NCBI GenBank assembly: GCA_016283195.1
Contig: JAEEML010000063.1
Span: 1 to 57,604 of the forward strand
Origin: Deltaproteobacteria bacterium
Lineage (GTDB): Bacteria; JAEEML01
DNA length: 57,604 nucleotides
Direction of reading: 5' to 3'
Both the position numbers and the translations under genes were made by a program. Below the pieces are notes generated by a model. That model was not told the origin of the DNA. It ran no database searches and saw nothing but the letters and a program-made list of their open reading frames with translations. Below are positions 11,240-32,972 of the stretch, piece after piece. Each line of letters begins with the position of its first letter. Position 1 is the stretch's first letter.

Positions 11240-14200
11240 CTATTTCTTGCGGCAAACAAAGGTTAAATTGGTGCCGAGCCCCAGTTCCGGCAGCTCTTTT
11301 TCTACAGTAAAGCCCGCTGTTTCCAGGAGCTTTAAATACTCACTTTTGCTTAAAAAGGTGAGCTCGTGGGCGCTTTTGTTGTGGCCGATGCCGGTAGCCA
11401 ATTTTTCAAAAAATTTCACATTTTTGTAGCCATGGCTCTCATCGCGGCAGCCATCGCGGAAGAGTAAAATGCCGCCCTCTTGCAGATGCAGGGCAATTTT
11501 CTTAAAAATTTCCAGCTGCTTATCTTGTGGCCAGTAGTGCGTGACATCTATCAAAAGAGCGCCGGCGGCTTTTTCCGGGAAATTTTCACTAAACATATCG
11601 CCGCATATATAGGTGGAATTTTGCGGATACATACTGTTTTTGGCGGCGATGGCCAGCTTACCGGCGTCATAATCAAGAGCCCAAATTTGCCGCAACGGGC
11701 TCTCATAGGCTAAAATATTAGCCATAAGGCCATAGCCGGTGCCGATATCCAAAATAGTGCCTGCACTTGGCAAGAGGCCGGGGAGGTGCCTAAAAATGGG
11801 GTCTATGGCCATTTTCCAGAAAATATACTGCTCATTATAAGGTCCGGTATAGGCATAATGAGCCATTAGCTCACGGCGAAAAGCCGGAGTTGCCGCCAAA
11901 TTACTGCGCGCTTTTTCATAGGCGCTGTTTATGATTTCCCGGAAATGGCTGGCCGCCTCTCTTGAAGTGCCTGAGAGTGTTTCCGGTGGCATAATAACCA
12001 CTTCTATAGCAAAGCGGCCGATAAACGGTGAGCCCTTGGCAATAGAAGAGCGGCTTTCAGCCAAAAGCACTGGCTGAATGGGAATATCTTCTTTAAGGGC
12101 CAGCTCAAATGCCCCTTTATGGAAACGCCCCAAAGTGCGCTCTATTTGCCTGCTGCCTTCGGGAAATATGAGAATATTTATCCCGGCTTTTATTAGCTTT
12201 TCGGCCCGCTCCAGTAAATCGTGGTTGTCATCTACCAGTAAAAAGCCGGCTTTGCGCACCATAAAGCCCATAAAAGGCACATCCCAGACCCATTTTTTTA
12301 CTACCATGCGCTGCTTGGGCAAAAAGGCTTCCAAAATGACGATATCGAGCATGGATTCATGGTTGGCTATATAAATGGCCGGGCTGGATTTTTGTAAATA
12401 TTTTAGGCCGGTTAAGTTTATTTTGCCAAATGGTATGGCGATAAGGGCTAGGCGGCAGATAATTTGCAAATATTTATTTAAGGCCGTTTCCAGTTTATCT
12501 TGGCGGCGCCGCAAAATAAGCCACAAAAGCGGGTAGAGAATAATAGTGCCCAAGATAGCACCGAGTATAAATACAGTGTAACCACAGAAAGTATTTATTA
12601 TTTGTACTAAAGTGACTGGCGCTTTGCCCGGTGCGGTGGCGGCGATGGGGCGCACAAAAAGGGGCACGGCCAGGAGTGCTGCTATCATGCCGCTGGCCAT
12701 GCCGATGGCGGCAGTAAAGCCCACGGAATTCATAGCCGGGTGGCTGGCAAGAGCCAGTGAACCCAAAGCGGCAATAGTGGTGAGTGCCGAAAGAATGATA
12801 GCCCCACTGGTGGTGCCTTTGCTGCTGCTTTTGGCCCCCTGGCGTGTTTCCAGCATATCGTTTATGACAAAGACTACATAATCAACCGACATACCAAAAA
12901 CGAAGACTACAAAGAGGCTGCTCATTAAGTTTATCGGCACGCCTATGTGGCCCATGATGCCGAAAGTCCAAGCCATGGCGCTGCCCATGGCATATATCAC
13001 CAGGAGGAGAAGCTCGGCCCGCCCCAGAGCCAAAAAGACGATAAGACAGACAACCAGTAGCGAAACAAGGCCGAAAGTCCACATAGAAGAAGTGACGATT
13101 TTTGAGAGATGATTTGTGTATAACTGGCCATGATACCAATGTAATTTCTGGAGATCAGCGCTGAGAATATCCACCGCTTTTTGGGCGTTTTCCGGGCTAA
13201 GGGTAACTCTTGTCAGCCCTAAATACTCGCCGCTTGGCCCTTTGGAATAATAGGCCTTAAAGACATCTGGCATGGCCTCTTTTAGCTCTTCGGGAGTTAT
13301 TAGAGCGCTCTCGGCTGAAGTTAGGAGACGGCTCATATATTGGGAAAAAGCCTCTTTTTTAAAGCCGGCTTCCTGTGCTGCTGCCGGCAAATAGTCGGTT
13401 AAACCGTCATTTTGGGCCTTAGCTATAATTTTGGCAAAAGCAGCGCGGTGTTCTTTTTGCAAATTTTCCGGCGGCAGGAGCATAGCCGGCGTACTAAAGT
13501 TGGAAATGGTAGCGTTTTTACGCAGCTTTTGCAAAATGGGCAGCAGTTTTTGTTGCTCTTTTGCCACTTCATCCATAGTGGGGGCAGATACTACTAAAAG
13601 CAGCTCACCCAAGAGTTCTTGCCCCCAGCGCGCCGTGATAGTGTTCTCCTGCTTTAGTGTTTTTGGCGCGGTGCCGCTGAGGTGGCGCATATCGCCATCG
13701 ATTTGCACTTTATTTATGCCGGTGAGTGCCACTATCCAGAGGGTAAGAACAATTAGCGCCGGCCATTTTTTATGGCTGTCATACCAGCGAAAGTAGCGCT
13801 CCATGAGGTTATTTAGTGCCAGTTTCGGGGGGCGTTTCTCTGAGCTTACTGCCGGCAAAAGATGGGGCAGGATAAAAAGGCTGAAGAACATGGCCGAAAG
13901 AATGCCCAATGAGGCCACAACGCCCAGCTGGCGTTGTCCCGGCAACATGGAAGTATTTAGGCACAAAAAGGCGCTGATAGTGGTGGCGGCGCCAATCATT
14001 ATGGGTGTGGCGAGGGGTGCCAGAATAGCTGCCGTCTTTTGCCCGGCGGCGGCGCAGTCGTAGCGGTATAAAATATGAATGGCGTAATCGACGGAAATAC
14101 CGATGAGCACCGCGCTAAAGCCCACTACTACGCCCTGAATTTCCGAGCTAAATAGCGAAAAGATGGCGAGCCCCAGTGCGCCGCCGAAGATTACCGGCAA

Positions 14201-15100
14201 ATATGAGTAGAAAATCATATACTTGCGTCTATAAGCCAAAAATACCAGCAAAGTGATGGCAATGAGGCTCACGGCCACAGTGAGGCCGATATCACGGCGG
14301 ATCATCACATTATTATCGCGCACGGCCGGGTGGGCGCCGGTGTAATTAACCACCACGCGCCCCTTGGGCTTATCCTTTAGGAGAGCGGCAATGATTTCAT
14401 CAACTTTATCGAGCATTGGCGCCGTTTTGCTGAAAACGGTGGCCGGGTAATCGGTCTGGGCTACCAGCATAATAGCCCGGCGATCGTTACTGACAACGGC
14501 GCCCTGATAAAGCTCATTGGTCATGCCGCCTTGCAAAGTGAGGAGCACCGGCCAATAGAGGCGGCGCAGGTTCAAAGGGTCGCTAAGAACCATCTGTTTG
14601 GGCAGCTCTCCGGGAGTTTCCATTAAAAAGCGGCGGTTTTGGGCCAGTTGCTCGCTTATGGCCTCTTTGGTCAGGAGTTTGGGCAGCTCTTCCAGCTGTT
14701 CCGGCCCGGAAAGCACGGGATAATGAGTGGCCAGTAAGTTAAAACCGGCGCCCACCAGCTCGTCATCTGTTTTGTAAGTAATAGTGCTAAAAAGTTGGCT
14801 GGCAGCGAGCTTTTCGTAAAGTTCATCAGCTATTTCAATTAGTTCGTCCAGTTCGCCGCTGGCCCCGTCATTAAAGGCTACCTCCATAAAGAGGCGGTTA
14901 TTATAATCAAAATTGCCATAGATGAGCAGCTGATCGGCCACAATGGAATCATCGGCCGGGAGCAAGGCTGTGATGCTCTCTTCCATCTCCAGCTTCTGGC
15001 CCACATAAAGAGAGAGGGCGGTAATAAGCGCTGTGAGCCCTAAAACCAGGGCGCGCCTTTTAGCCAGTATATTATATATAAAAGTGAAAAAGCTCTGCAT
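11240..15100 (-). CDS. Trifunctional MMPL transporter / lysophospholipid acyltransferase / SAM methyltransferase
   Basis: A 1286-residue fusion. Residues 1 to about 800 form an MMPL/RND-type lipid exporter with two halves of about six membrane helices; ISVDYAIHILYRYD and MSVDYVVFVINDM mark the paired membrane segments. Around residue 912 comes an acyltransferase with NHESMLD and FPEGSR, the PlsC catalytic and substrate motifs. From about residue 1110 a class I methyltransferase follows, with ILDIGTGYG binding S-adenosylmethionine. The same three-part order is known from several proteobacteria near aryl-polyene-like or fatty-acid-derived lipid loci. The downstream oxidoreductase supports synthesis and export of a modified acyl lipid, but no ketosynthase is in the window. 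Inference: one polypeptide moves and modifies a lipid at the inner membrane. Confidence 0.88.
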   Translation of the reverse strand: MQSFFTFIYNILAKRRALVLGLTALITALSLYVGQKLEMEESITALLPADDSIVADQLLIYGNFDYNNRLFMEVAFNDGASGELDELIEIADELYEKLAASQLFSTITYKTDDELVGAGFNLLATHYPVLSGPEQLEELPKLLTKEAISEQLAQNRRFLMETPGELPKQMVLSDPLNLRRLYWPVLLTLQGGMTNELYQGAVVSNDRRAIMLVAQTDYPATVFSKTAPMLDKVDEIIAALLKDKPKGRVVVNYTGAHPAVRDNNVMIRRDIGLTVAVSLIAITLLVFLAYRRKYMIFYSYLPVIFGGALGLAIFSLFSSEIQGVVVGFSAVLIGISVDYAIHILYRYDCAAAGQKTAAILAPLATPIMIGAATTISAFLCLNTSMLPGQRQLGVVASLGILSAMFFSLFILPHLLPAVSSEKRPPKLALNNLMERYFRWYDSHKKWPALIVLTLWIVALTGINKVQIDGDMRHLSGTAPKTLKQENTITARWGQELLGELLLVVSAPTMDEVAKEQQKLLPILQKLRKNATISNFSTPAMLLPPENLQKEHRAAFAKIIAKAQNDGLTDYLPAAAQEAGFKKEAFSQYMSRLLTSAESALITPEELKEAMPDVFKAYYSKGPSGEYLGLTRVTLSPENAQKAVDILSADLQKLHWYHGQLYTNHLSKIVTSSMWTFGLVSLLVVCLIVFLALGRAELLLLVIYAMGSAMAWTFGIMGHIGVPINLMSSLFVVFVFGMSVDYVVFVINDMLETRQGAKSSSKGTTSGAIILSALTTIAALGSLALASHPAMNSVGFTAAIGMASGMIAALLAVPLFVRPIAATAPGKAPVTLVQIINTFCGYTVFILGAILGTIILYPLLWLILRRRQDKLETALNKYLQIICRLALIAIPFGKINLTGLKYLQKSSPAIYIANHESMLDIVILEAFLPKQRMVVKKWVWDVPFMGFMVRKAGFLLVDDNHDLLERAEKLIKAGINILIFPEGSRQIERTLGRFHKGAFELALKEDIPIQPVLLAESRSSIAKGSPFIGRFAIEVVIMPPETLSGTSREAASHFREIINSAYEKARSNLAATPAFRRELMAHYAYTGPYNEQYIFWKMAIDPIFRHLPGLLPSAGTILDIGTGYGLMANILAYESPLRQIWALDYDAGKLAIAAKNSMYPQNSTYICGDMFSENFPEKAAGALLIDVTHYWPQDKQLEIFKKIALHLQEGGILLFRDGCRDESHGYKNVKFFEKLATGIGHNKSAHELTFLSKSEYLKLLETAGFTVEKELPELGLGTNLTFVCRKK

Positions 15101-20195: not shown

Positions 20196-20223
20196 TGAGA
20201 CCTGTCTTTAATTGGAGGAAAGC

Positions 20224-20661
20224 ATGGTCGCAAATTTTGAAGATTATAACGGTGAAGAAGAGCTTATTTCTTATGGCCCGCGGCGCGATGATTATTCTAC
20301 TTTTGAGGAAGTCTATAGCGTCGATGACGATGAGAATGAAGAAGATGAAGACGAAGATGACGACGACGATGACGACGACGACAATGACGACGATGACGAC
20401 GATGATGAATATGTAGATGATGATTTTGATGACGAAGAAGATGATGATTTTGTAGATGATGATGATTATGACGACATCTATGATGATGGCGGTGAAATAT
20501 TAGAGCTTGATGACGGCTACTCCGGCAAACGCTTTGTCAAAGACTACGATGAAGACGAAGAAGACGAGAACGAAGACGGCCTCTATGAAACCAGTGAAGA
20601 CGAAGAGGAAGACGAAGACAATTTTGACGGAGATGATAACGATTACCTCGATGAGGAGTAG
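20224..20661 (+). CDS. Extremely acidic protein of unknown function
   Basis: A 145-residue protein dominated by Asp and Glu, with runs of up to nine Asp, beginning MVANFEDYNGEEELISYG. There are almost no hydrophobic residues beyond tyrosines spaced through the acidic tracts (DDYD, EVYS, DEYVDDD). GGAGGAA precedes the ATG and the frame is clearly maintained, but the GAC/GAT tracts are simple-sequence DNA prone to slippage. It does not match the RNA polymerase delta subunit, which needs an N-terminal folded domain. Possible roles are a histone- or RNA-mimic or a cation buffer; this is speculation. It precedes an interrupted gene by 30 bases. Confidence 0.6.
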   Translation: MVANFEDYNGEEELISYGPRRDDYSTFEEVYSVDDDENEEDEDEDDDDDDDDDNDDDDDDDEYVDDDFDDEEDDDFVDDDDYDDIYDDGGEILELDDGYSGKRFVKDYDEDEEDENEDGLYETSEDEEEDEDNFDGDDNDYLDEE

Positions 20662-27044: not shown

Positions 27045-27527
27045 CTAGTGTTCAATAGGGTTACTTAATAAATCGGCCGAAATTTCTGGTTCCGGCAATT
27101 TCAGCTCCCTAGCCAGCAGCATAACACTTTTGCGCACTTCGGCGCGCTTAAATTGTTTCTGCGCCAAAATAAGATCGTCGCCGCTTGTCTCCTGGCAAAG
27201 TTTACTGGCGGCATCCAGCTCGGCTGCTATATCGGCGCGGTTAAGTTCGCTGTAATGGGCCGCTTCGTTTACCAGGATAGTTACTGTTTCACCGCAGACT
27301 TCGGCAAAACCGTCGCCTACATAGTAAAGATCTTCTTTATCATTACCTTCGCGCAGAATGAGCGCTCCCTGGGTGAGGGCGGTAATGAGGTTTAAATGGC
27401 CGGGCAAAATTTGCAGCTCACCGTTTTCGCCTGGCAAAGTGACGGCAAAGACCTCGGCGCCAAAGAGCTGCCTGATGGGCGTCACGATGATGACATTTAA
27501 GGCACTGGGCAATTCCATCATGGTCAT
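27045..27527 (-). CDS. atpC: F-type ATP synthase epsilon subunit
   Basis: A 160-residue F1 central-stalk subunit that couples rotation and inhibits ATP hydrolysis. The N-terminal beta-sandwich has VTLPGENGELQILPGH, the family hallmark, and the C-terminal helices follow. Five bases separate it from atpD. The first of three close ATG codons is chosen because AAGG lies ten bases upstream. It is the last gene of the ATP synthase run. Confidence 0.92.
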   Translation of the reverse strand: MTMMELPSALNVIIVTPIRQLFGAEVFAVTLPGENGELQILPGHLNLITALTQGALILREGNDKEDLYYVGDGFAEVCGETVTILVNEAAHYSELNRADIAAELDAASKLCQETSGDDLILAQKQFKRAEVRKSVMLLARELKLPEPEISADLLSNPIEH

Positions 27528-27532
27528 GGCTA

Positions 27533-28984
<1,452 letters not shown>

Positions 28985-29857
28985 CTAATTGCCTAAAGCA
29001 CCGGCGCCGCCGATAATATCCAGCAGCTCGGTGGTTACCGCCTCCTGGCGGGCTCTATTATAAGATAATAATAATTTTTCGCGCATTTCCGCTTCGTTAT
29101 GGGCAGCAGCTTCCATGGCATTCATGCGGGCGGCGTGCTCGCTGGCGCTGCTTTCCAAAAGAGTGCGCCAAAGATGATAAGCTAAATAAAGCGGAGCCAG
29201 TTTATCCAAAAATGTTTTGGAATCTGGCTCAAAAATATACTCATCGGCCGGAGTGGCCGCCTCCTGCTGCTCTACCGGCATAATGGGCAGGGCTTGCTTT
29301 ATGACAATACTTTGGTGGGCCATGCTCTCAAATTCATGATAGATGAGAAAGAGGGCGTCCATATCGTGTTTAATATAAGAGGCAGCAAAGCCATCGGCCA
29401 ATTCTGAAACTTTTTGATAAGTTAAATTTTCAAATACCCCCGGATAGTTATGCAAAAGTTCATAATTGTTATGGCGGAAATAGTCATAGCCTTTGCGGCC
29501 GATTAAGGCCAGCTCTATTTTTACCCCTTTAGCTTCTTCTTCTTTGATAAACTTTTCGGCCTCGCGCAGCAGATTGCTGTTAAAAGCGCCGCACATCCCG
29601 CGATCGGAGGTAATAACCACCAAAATGGCCTTTTTTATCTCGCGCTGCTCCATAAAGGGGTGCATGGTGTGAGTGCTATCGCGGGCCGAAACGCGAGCTA
29701 AAAGGTTTATCAGCTGCTCGCTGTAAGGCCTTGCGGCTATCAGAGTGCGCTGGGCTCTCCGGAAACGCACAGTAGAGACATGCTTCATGGCGTGAGTGAT
29801 TTTTTTCGTCGTTTCCAGCGAGCGGATGCGCTTTTTTATTTGTTGTAAACTACTCAC
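28985..29857 (-). CDS. atpG: F-type ATP synthase gamma subunit
   Basis: A 290-residue rotor shaft protein. It starts with IKKRIRSLETTKKITHAMK, the conserved N-terminal helix, and ends with RQEAVTTELLDIIGGAGAL, the conserved C-terminal helix. The start is a GTG at 29857, 3 bases beyond the stop of the delta-alpha fusion; this non-ATG start with a weak ribosome site suggests translational coupling. Confidence 0.94.
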   Translation of the reverse strand: MSSLQQIKKRIRSLETTKKITHAMKHVSTVRFRRAQRTLIAARPYSEQLINLLARVSARDSTHTMHPFMEQREIKKAILVVITSDRGMCGAFNSNLLREAEKFIKEEEAKGVKIELALIGRKGYDYFRHNNYELLHNYPGVFENLTYQKVSELADGFAASYIKHDMDALFLIYHEFESMAHQSIVIKQALPIMPVEQQEAATPADEYIFEPDSKTFLDKLAPLYLAYHLWRTLLESSASEHAARMNAMEAAAHNEAEMREKLLLSYNRARQEAVTTELLDIIGGAGALGN

Positions 29858-29860
29858 GGC

Positions 29861-31960
29861 CTAGCCCTTTAAAGCCAAAAAAGCATTTATATTTTGCCTG
29901 ATTATGGGTGCGAGTTCGGCTGTTAGCGCGCTAATATCGCTGCACTTATCAATGGCTTCCAAGAGATCTTTATGATTCTTCTCAAAATCATCGGTAAGAG
30001 CCTGGCAGAAGGCACCGACATCGGCCACTTCAATGGCTCTAAGGTAAATTTTGCCCGTTTCGCTGTCTTTTGTCATGGCGGCATAAAGTTGCAAAAGCTC
30101 TTTAGGCACGCTCATCGGCTGATATTTGGTTTGTTTTAAAACTTCCACCAGCCGCGCTCCTTCGGCCAGGCGCTCCTGGGTGGCTTTATCCAAATCGGTG
30201 CCGAATTGAGCAAAAGCCGCCAGGTCGTTGTATTTAGCCAAAGAGAGGCGCAGCGAACCGGCCAATTTTTTCATAGATTTGCGCTGGGCGGCACTACCTA
30301 CGCGGCTAACCGAAATACCCACATTGATAGCCGGGCGGTTGCCGGCGTAAAAAAGGTCGGCTTCCAAATATATCTGGCCATCGGTGATGGAGATAATATT
30401 AGTGGGAATATAGGCAGTTACATCGCCGGCCTGGGTCTCCACAATGGGCAGAGCGGTGAGTGAGCCGCCGCCCATCTTGTCACTCATTTTGGCTGCCCGC
30501 TCCAAAAGGCGGGAGTGCAAATAAAAGACATCGCCGGGAAAAGCTTCGCGGGCCGGGGGGCGGCGCAGGAGCAGGGCCAGTTGCCTATAGGCCACGGCGT
30601 GCTTGCTGAGGTCGTCATAAATAACCAGCGCATGGCCGCCGTTATCGCGATCTTCCTCGCCTATTGCTGTGCCGGTATATGGTGCCAGATATTGCAAAGT
30701 AGCCGGATCGGCAGCCGAAGCGGTTACTACAGTGGTATATTCCATAGCGCCGTTAGCTCTTAGCGTATCCACCACCCGGGCCACAGTGGAAAGTTTTTGG
30801 CCGATAGCCACATAAATGCAGTGAACACCCTGGCCCTTCTGGTTGATGATGGTATCAATGGCGATTGTGGTTTTACCGATTTGCCGATCGCCGATGATTA
30901 ACTGGCGCTGGCCGCGGCCGCTGGGGATCATGGCGTCAATGGCTTTAAGGCCCGTTTGCAAGGGCTCGCACACCGGCTGGCGTTTTACGATACCCGGAGC
31001 TTTAGACTCCATGGGGCGCGTTTTTTCGGCTTTTAGCGGCGGCAGGCCGTCTAAGGGCTCGCCCAGCGCGTTAATTACTCGGCCCCAGGTACATTTGCCC
31101 ACAGGCACCGAGGCGATGGTGCCGGTACGGCGCACCGTTTCACCCTCGGAAATTTTGGTGGAATCGCCCATAACGGCCACTCCAACGCCCGCTTCCTCAA
31201 TGCTCAGAGTTAGCCCTTTAACGCCGCTTTGAAATTCCACAAGCTCGCCCAGCATAACGTGCAAAAGACCATGTATTTTGGCAATGCCGTCGCCGGCCGA
31301 GATAACTGTACCCACTTCCGATACATCGTAGCTTTTAACCGGCCTAGCAATTTGCTCGCGCAAAATACTAATAATATCAGTAGTATTTACCTCAATGCTG
31401 CCGCTGGTGGAAGCCGTATATTCGGCGAGGTTTTGGCTGATGCGCTGTTTTAAACGCTCGGTTTGCCCCAAGATGGAATCATCTATCAAGAGATCACCCA
31501 GGTGCAATACCACGCCGGCGCAAAGTTCTGGTTTTACTTCCTCTTTGATTTCGATATGGCACTCTAAAATCTTTTCAAAATGCTCTCTTATAGCGCTTTT
31601 TTGCTCGCTGGTTAAGGCAAAGGCTGTTTCCACCTTAAGCTCAAGAATATTATTCAGCTCATGGTGGCGCTTTAAGAGGGCTGGCACAAAGAGTTCTAGT
31701 TTTTGAATGGTGTTATCATCCAAAAGAAGAGTAATAATATCAGTAACTTCTTTGCTGCTGCCGAGCTCTTTGGCTATAGTCTCGATGAGCATTTCGCGGC
31801 TTTTTAAACTGAGGCGCGGATCTTCCACCATGGAGAGAATTTCCGGGTCATGTAAAAGCACTTGCCATTTTTTTAGCTCATCCAGAGCAACTTGCAATTT
31901 TAAATTGGCTTTACCAATGGTGGCTAAAAAGTCATTGGCATAGACCTCTATACTTTTCAT
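29861..31960 (-). CDS. atpH-atpA: F-type ATP synthase delta-alpha fusion subunit
   Basis: One reading frame of 699 residues. Residues 1 to about 190 are a complete delta (OSCP) subunit: six-helix N-domain, then [20 protein letters not shown], the delta C-terminal signature. From about 190 the alpha subunit begins ([20 protein letters not shown]), with Walker [10 protein letters not shown] and a full length of about 510. The joint around [16 protein letters not shown] has no stop, no ATG or GTG and no clear ribosome site, so separate translation of alpha is not evident. The ATG overlaps the atpF stop (TGATG) with AAGGTGA upstream. Mycobacteria fuse b to delta, but I know of no delta-alpha fusion. 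F1 normally has one delta and three alpha. Confidence 0.92.
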
Positions 31961-32544
31961 CAAAATTCACCTTTTACGGCTTTGGCAATTTCCTGCCCGG
32001 CGCTGCCGTTTAAATCGCTTAAAAGATTATCAATTAGCTTTTGGTGTATAACTTGGCTGTTTTCCTTAGAAATTTTTCTTTTGGCATCGTCAAAGAGGCT
32101 TTTTAAAAATTCGGCGAAAATCTCTTTGTTTAGCTCAATTTTTTCGGCCAAAACGCGATCTTGATATTCGCCTTCGAGGAGTTTTTTAATAATTTCCAGC
32201 TGTTCTTTCTCATCCAGGTGGATAGCTTCTATCTCTGCCTTGAGCTTTTCCTGGAAGCCGGCCACCTTGTCATCGACGCGTGCCAGTTCTTCTTTGGCCT
32301 TAAGCGCGTTTGCTTCAGCATTTTTCAGGCGGGCGGCGGAGCTATTTATGTCGCTTTCTATTTGCTCGTGGCGGCTTTTAAAAAACTCGCGGAATTTATG
32401 GCGGCCGAAATACCAAATAATAAAAGCGATGAGCGCCAGATTAAAGGCCGACCAACAGGTTTTCCACCAGGGGAAAGGCTCAGCGGCATTGGTTAGCAGC
32501 AAATTTCCGGCCTCGGCGGTCAGCATAGTGGCTAAACTATTCAT
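31960..32544 (-). CDS. atpF: F-type ATP synthase b subunit
   Basis: A 194-residue peripheral-stalk protein with one membrane helix (about 28-46), then a long charged helix that binds delta. The ATG overlaps the previous stop (ATGA), and the stop overlaps the start of the delta-alpha gene. The N-terminus before the helix is longer than usual. It pairs with the shorter b' gene upstream; such b/b' pairs are usual in photosynthetic and several deltaproteobacterial genomes. Confidence 0.9.
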
Positions 32545-32972
32545 GTGGCATCACCTTCCTGGCGGCTTAGTGATTTAGCTAGTAAGTCTACTAGATTGCT
32601 GCGGCCTGAAGCCAAATCATTGCGGGTTTTGGCGGCGTAAGTGGTGAGCTCATTGTTGGCTTTCTCTAGCCTTTTAATATGGGCTTCTTGTAGTGCCTGG
32701 CGGCCAGTTTGCAATTCGCCGCGCGTGAGCACAATTTCATTTTGCCGTTTAAGGCTCATCTCTTGCAATTTTTCATCTAAGATGGCAGCCGATTTATCGC
32801 TTATCTGCTTAGCTTCCTGCTCCAAAAGAGCGGCTTTGCCCTGAGCGCCCTCAATAAGGGCCTCGCGCTCCAAAATGGCGCGCAAAAATGGGCGGGCCAG
32901 AATGCCGGCGCCGGCAGCCAAAGCAGCTATGATGATGACAAGCTGCATAATTACCGTAACATCAAGATCCAT
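32541..32972 (-). CDS. F-type ATP synthase b' subunit
   Basis: A 143-residue peripheral-stalk protein with an N-terminal membrane helix (about 7-27) and a long Ala/Glu/Lys/Arg-rich helix. Gene position before atpF, similar architecture and lack of a second b copy point to b'. GAGG lies nine bases before the ATG. It is the first gene of the operon. The a and c subunits (atpB, atpE) are absent and must lie elsewhere. Confidence 0.85.
   Translation of the reverse strand: MDLDVTVIMQLVIIIAALAAGAGILARPFLRAILEREALIEGAQGKAALLEQEAKQISDKSAAILDEKLQEMSLKRQNEIVLTRGELQTGRQALQEAHIKRLEKANNELTTYAAKTRNDLASGRSNLVDLLAKSLSRQEGDAT

Follow-up and report, generated by a model that had tools for sequence, protein, structure and literature searches.

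Until recently, ATP synthases were taken to have, as a rule, a single stalk and a single proton-conducting a-subunit, and the N-terminal domain (NTD) of the delta subunit has been held to enforce this. In the enzyme of Bacillus PS3, the delta NTD was deleted, the C-terminal domain (CTD) was fused to alpha and the structure was solved (PDB 9JC1); the engineered delta(deltaN)-alpha enzyme carried up to three stalks and a-subunits, with an H+/ATP ratio of 5.8, and it was concluded that the NTD, which lies on the threefold axis, restricts the stalks to one (Ueno et al. 2025, PMC12229609). Natural delta-alpha fusions devoid of the NTD were described for Acidaminococcus fermentans and others (UniProt G4Q3K6 and A0A1I2C5T3; PMC12229609). 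For the ATP synthase of Chloroflexus aurantiacus (PDB 9ITJ series), two a and two delta chains are counted per three alpha, so that the PDB appears to contain a naturally occurring multi-stalk enzyme.

The locus described here joins a full delta to alpha. In the window (the whole stretch of DNA that was analysed, 57,604 nucleotides), delta and alpha are encoded on the minus strand (31960..29861) by one open frame of 699 amino acids without internal stop, as had been stated in the original prediction, and the frame is matched by OSCP and atpA profiles. The encoded chain runs from a complete delta (six-helix NTD and CTD) through a 10-residue linker into a complete alpha. Pfam domains were located as follows (numbered from the TTG start): OSCP 13-174, ATP-synt_ab_N 214-281, ATP-synt_ab 338-553 and ATP-synt_ab_C 560-683. 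The OSCP profile (PF00213) spans both delta domains (89 bits, cut-off 22.3, model positions 9-171 of 172), and the NCBIfam equivalog TIGR00962 (atpA) covers residues 192-695 in the same numbering (739 bits, cut-off 484, model positions 2-497 of 503). The locus is not that of an N-type ATPase: a delta is present, and the alternate F1 alpha model TIGR03324 reached 558 bits, short of the cut-off (750).

In ATG numbering, which is used from here on, delta extends to about residue 178 and alpha starts with Ile189-Glu-Val-Asn, equivalent to the usual alpha N-terminus; the linker between them includes TASTSGS and is rich in Ser, Thr, Gly and Ala. The joint had been said to be free of stop, ATG and GTG codons, and this was borne out; TTG is likewise absent, yet the exact place of the usual alpha start is taken by an ATT codon. 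Past the joint, the earliest canonical start codons in frame are TTG 200, GTG 216 and ATG 236, the last of which lies inside the beta-barrel domain. Coordinates of all features are collated in the table.

Table. Features of the atp locus in the window (positions in the window, all on the minus strand; residues in ATG numbering).
Feature	Position	Strand	Evidence and remarks
Fused delta-alpha gene	29861..31963	-	Start TTG 31963 or ATG 31960; stop TAG 29861-29863; one open frame with OSCP and three alpha domains
Delta N-terminal domain, six predicted helices	31655..31951	-	Residues 4-102; AlphaFold2 model and match to PS3 delta 6n2y_I; profile 25.7 bits
Delta C-terminal (stalk-binding) domain	31427..31648	-	Residues 105-178; profile 64 bits; aligned with the CTD part of the PDB 9jc1 fusion
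Delta/alpha linker	31397..31426	-	Residues ~179-188; engineered 9jc1 has IGGSGGSIR at this place
ATT codon (Ile189)	31394..31396	-	At the usual alpha start position; no Shine-Dalgarno (-1.7 to -2.0 kcal/mol)
Complete alpha subunit	29864..31396	-	Residues 189-699; TIGR00962 atpA, 739 bits; 56-61% identity to relatives
b subunit gene	31960..32544	-	Overlaps the delta-alpha start; Pfam ATP-synt_B 27.3 bits, just below the cut-off of 28; operon position
Probable b-prime subunit gene	32541..32972	-	No Pfam match; inferred from N-terminal membrane segment, size and operon position
Gamma subunit gene	28985..29857	-	Pfam ATP-synt, E 1.5e-92
Beta subunit gene	27533..28975	-	Pfam ATP-synt_ab, E 9e-66
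Epsilon subunit gene	27045..27527	-	Pfam ATP-synt_DE_N, E 6.5e-22

The genes of the operon are arranged in the order b', b, delta-alpha, gamma, beta, epsilon. Elsewhere in the window, a single frame of 1286 amino acids (11240-15100) apparently combines an RND/MMPL-type exporter with an acyltransferase and a methyltransferase, and 20212-20661 encodes a protein of extreme acidity with long stretches of Asp; no Rfam family was matched within the window. The absence of a separate atpA or atpH, originally noted for the window, holds for the whole genome (assembly of 3.22 Mb in 190 contigs, 100% complete): the fused gene is the sole OSCP match, and no second F-type alpha was found when the profile matches to ATP-synt_ab were checked. 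The remaining alpha/beta-type matches belong to the beta subunit of the window, to V/A-type subunits A and B on contig C9, and to a contig-end piece on C105, which was rejected as a second alpha, being a fragment of a T3SS/flagellar-type ATPase. F-type a and c are encoded by single copies on contigs C18 and C1, apart from the operon; the otherwise complete FoF1 set thus relies on the fused gene for both delta and alpha. The c-subunit gene (C1, 2740-3078; 112 amino acids in total) has a signal-peptide-like N-terminal extension, and the V/A-type rotary ATPase on C9 (729-8398) comprises at least A, B and a c/K ring protein.

The state of the delta NTD was assessed by structure prediction and by profile scores. 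AlphaFold2, supplied with a delta-only alignment of 72 rows, returned six NTD helices and the CTD with a pLDDT of ~95, a value that owes much to the alignment of relatives; in a run on a mixed alignment of 61 rows, the NTD was poorly predicted. The delta-only model is best matched by the PS3 delta (6n2y_I), and the best structural match of the window's model is the engineered fusion 9jc1. Profile scores were cross-validated and compared with those of 69 separate deltas chosen by similarity to the window; because of this choice, 20 divergent separate deltas were added, giving 89 in all. The 69 separate deltas scored 56-107 bits for the NTD (median 85), against 25.7 bits for the window and 5.8-8.6 bits for the full-length fusions of a second genus described below; for the CTD, the window (64 bits) lies inside the range of the separate deltas (median 76), and the second genus scored 43-52 bits. 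When the CTD score was subtracted from the NTD score, the window fell below 88 of the 89 separate deltas, and the other fusions were very low too. The one separate delta with a larger NTD deficit belongs to genome G054 (locus L135, contig C3); it is of full length, with a strong CTD and no recognisable NTD. Helix 1 of the delta NTD, including the area of E. coli Ala14, is taken by us to bind the alpha N-terminus. At the Ala14 position, the window has D and the second genus E, against no acidic residue in any of 88 separate deltas; a near-invariant Arg at position 84 is replaced by T or L in the full-length fusions. In both full-length lineages, the delta NTD is far more eroded in sequence than the CTD.

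Further fusions were sought in a broad survey of 386 genomes, in 275 of which OSCP is present. Among the matches listed with a frame length, all but some two dozen of the 275, full-length fused frames occur only in the genome of the window and in one genus of another phylum (genomes G046 and G059), and a search of the relatives of G046 yielded a third species of that genus with a full-length fusion (G060); of the 80 loci in genome_contigs nearest to the window, none carries a fusion. The fusions of this genus (loci L037, L120 and L121; chains of 681-682 amino acids in frames of 682, 697 and 682) resemble that of the window in having NTD, CTD and alpha in one chain, with b upstream and gamma downstream. 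They differ from it in the phylum, in the still more diverged NTD, in the presence of a in the same operon and in the absence of a Ser/Gly linker, the delta CTD running almost straight into the N-terminal helix of alpha. Compared across the three species, the joint is conserved and under purifying selection (dN/dS 0.09-0.18), as is the delta NTD (dN/dS 0.07-0.19), and no ATG, GTG or TTG near the joint is common to all three. An alpha-chain tree places the window with Myxococcota, on a long branch. A single origin of both full-length fusions was rejected when both were forced into one clade (p-AU 0.019, to be read with the long branch of the window in mind); the full-length fusion therefore most likely arose independently in the lineage of the window and in the second genus. 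The fused state would thus have arisen at least twice without loss of the NTD. A natural fusion of the delta(deltaN)-alpha type (577 amino acids) was found in genome G153 (contig C40, 4072-5805); in its operon, a and c are separated by a PTS EIIA-like gene, and neither gamma nor beta follows directly downstream. Separate deltas consisting of a CTD only (~75-80 residues) lie directly before alpha in genomes G143 (L130, 4307-4537) and G279 (L131, 3092-3439) and are candidates for multi-stalk ATP synthases without fusion.

The stoichiometric argument of the original prediction, that F1 contains three alpha and one delta, was judged sound: with a full delta tied to every alpha, a gene dosage of 3:1 conflicts directly with the one-delta rule. 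Judged from the sequence, the chain most likely stays fused and more than one stalk would form; the explanation as a whole (fused chain, altered NTD, two or three stalks) is assigned a probability of about 45%. At the DNA level, the gene yields one 699-residue delta-alpha chain as the sole source of both subunits in the cell, so each F1 would take up three chains. By homology, three tethered delta CTDs per F1 would lie beside the alpha N-termini, where delta normally sits. The NTD is predicted to fold still, and its alpha-binding face appears changed, so that it may lie off the threefold axis and would no longer set the one-stalk limit as in ordinary enzymes. Two or three b/b' stalks could then dock, with one a-subunit each, in the manner of the engineered delta(deltaN)-alpha enzyme; the H+/ATP ratio would be higher, and ATP synthesis at low proton-motive force could become possible. 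One enzyme could then carry up to three stationary arms instead of one. The single a gene and single F-type c gene leave the stalk number undecided by gene count. It is proposed tentatively, at somewhat less than even odds, that all three alpha carry a full delta whose NTD has been turned from a limiter to one stalk into an element compatible with threefold symmetry.

The fused multi-stalk reading is supported by the single frame, by the genome's lack of a second delta or F-type alpha, by the absence at the joint of any canonical start codon preceded by a ribosome site, and by an independent full-length fusion in three species with the joint under purifying selection; the 9jc1 match, the NTD score deficit, the acidic residue at the Ala14 position, the multi-stalk precedent of the engineered enzyme and the chain counts of the Chloroflexus enzyme point the same way. 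Of the answers offered originally, a changed stalk with two or three attachments is thus favoured by the evidence, and proteolysis or internal initiation keeps a smaller chance. It is doubtful that free alpha is released in either of these ways (cleavage of the linker, or initiation at the rare codon ATT189 or ATT196) and that the finished enzyme carries a single delta with a single stalk, as usual. The linker, rich in small residues, could be cleaved, yet the second genus has no such linker; ATT189 coincides with the canonical alpha start but lacks a ribosome site, and initiation at ATT196 is possible, since a GAGG site lies 10 nt upstream of it (-7.0 kcal/mol). Near the joint in the second genus, in-frame ATA codons follow a conserved AGAAGG, and codon conservation there is only mildly above average (rank 5 of 606 windows, not an outlier). 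ATT and ATA are poor start codons, however, whereas free alpha would be needed at no less than twice the amount of the fused chain, and an enzyme with one delta offers no reason for the erosion of the NTD in both lineages.

That the chain stays fused while only one of its three deltas docks, with the NTD in the central dimple, one b/b' stalk and two deltas idle, is unlikely. This arrangement would agree with an NTD that is retained, predicted to fold and, in the second genus, under purifying selection, and with the one-stalk limit attributed to the NTD (PMC12229609); the presence of the very domain whose deletion allowed more than one stalk there also speaks against a multi-stalk enzyme. As in the engineered enzyme, three tethered CTDs would nevertheless give stalks three equivalent places to bind, and both lineages show changes in the NTD surface that is expected to dock on alpha. 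Fast evolution across the lineage could also account for the weak NTD scores, but the CTD does not show the same effect. An artefact, in which the stop and the alpha start codon were lost through base errors in the metagenome assembly, is very improbable: the fusion was found in a single fragmented genome (190 contigs) without a second genome of the phylum for comparison, but restoration of the normal arrangement takes at least two separate changes (stop and ATG), the 699-residue frame is otherwise intact and has no ribosome site before the would-be alpha start, and the same architecture occurs in three other species.

Among known systems, the mycobacterial b-delta fusion joins delta to the neighbouring stator subunit b, once per enzyme, and poses no conflict of stoichiometry, unlike the fusion in the window, where b is a separate gene overlapping the delta-alpha start and a b-delta fusion is absent. 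The delta of Chloroflexus aurantiacus is a separate chain of 157 residues, whereas that of the window is fused. The fusions of the Acidaminococcus type (PMC12229609) and of genome G153 are natural delta-alpha chains in an atp operon, as in the window, but the NTD is missing there and kept here. Closest is the engineered PS3 chain (9JC1): in both, a complete CTD is followed in frame by a short Gly/Ser-type linker and then by a complete alpha, which is thereby attached at its N-terminus. The 9JC1 chain lacks the delta NTD (residues 2-104), whereas in the window ~102 residues of NTD are retained, eroded in sequence and predicted to form a six-helix bundle; multiple stalks have been demonstrated for the engineered enzyme, and for the window, known from its genes, they are inferred. 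The original statement of being aware of no delta-alpha fusion is corrected by the work of Ueno et al. (2025, PMC12229609) and by the fusions in G153 and in the second genus. The kind of fusion has thus been published already, and its full-length form seems new because the NTD deleted by Ueno et al. is retained; the gene of the window is a real and well-supported full-length form of the recently recognised delta-alpha fusion, from which a stalk number can be predicted.
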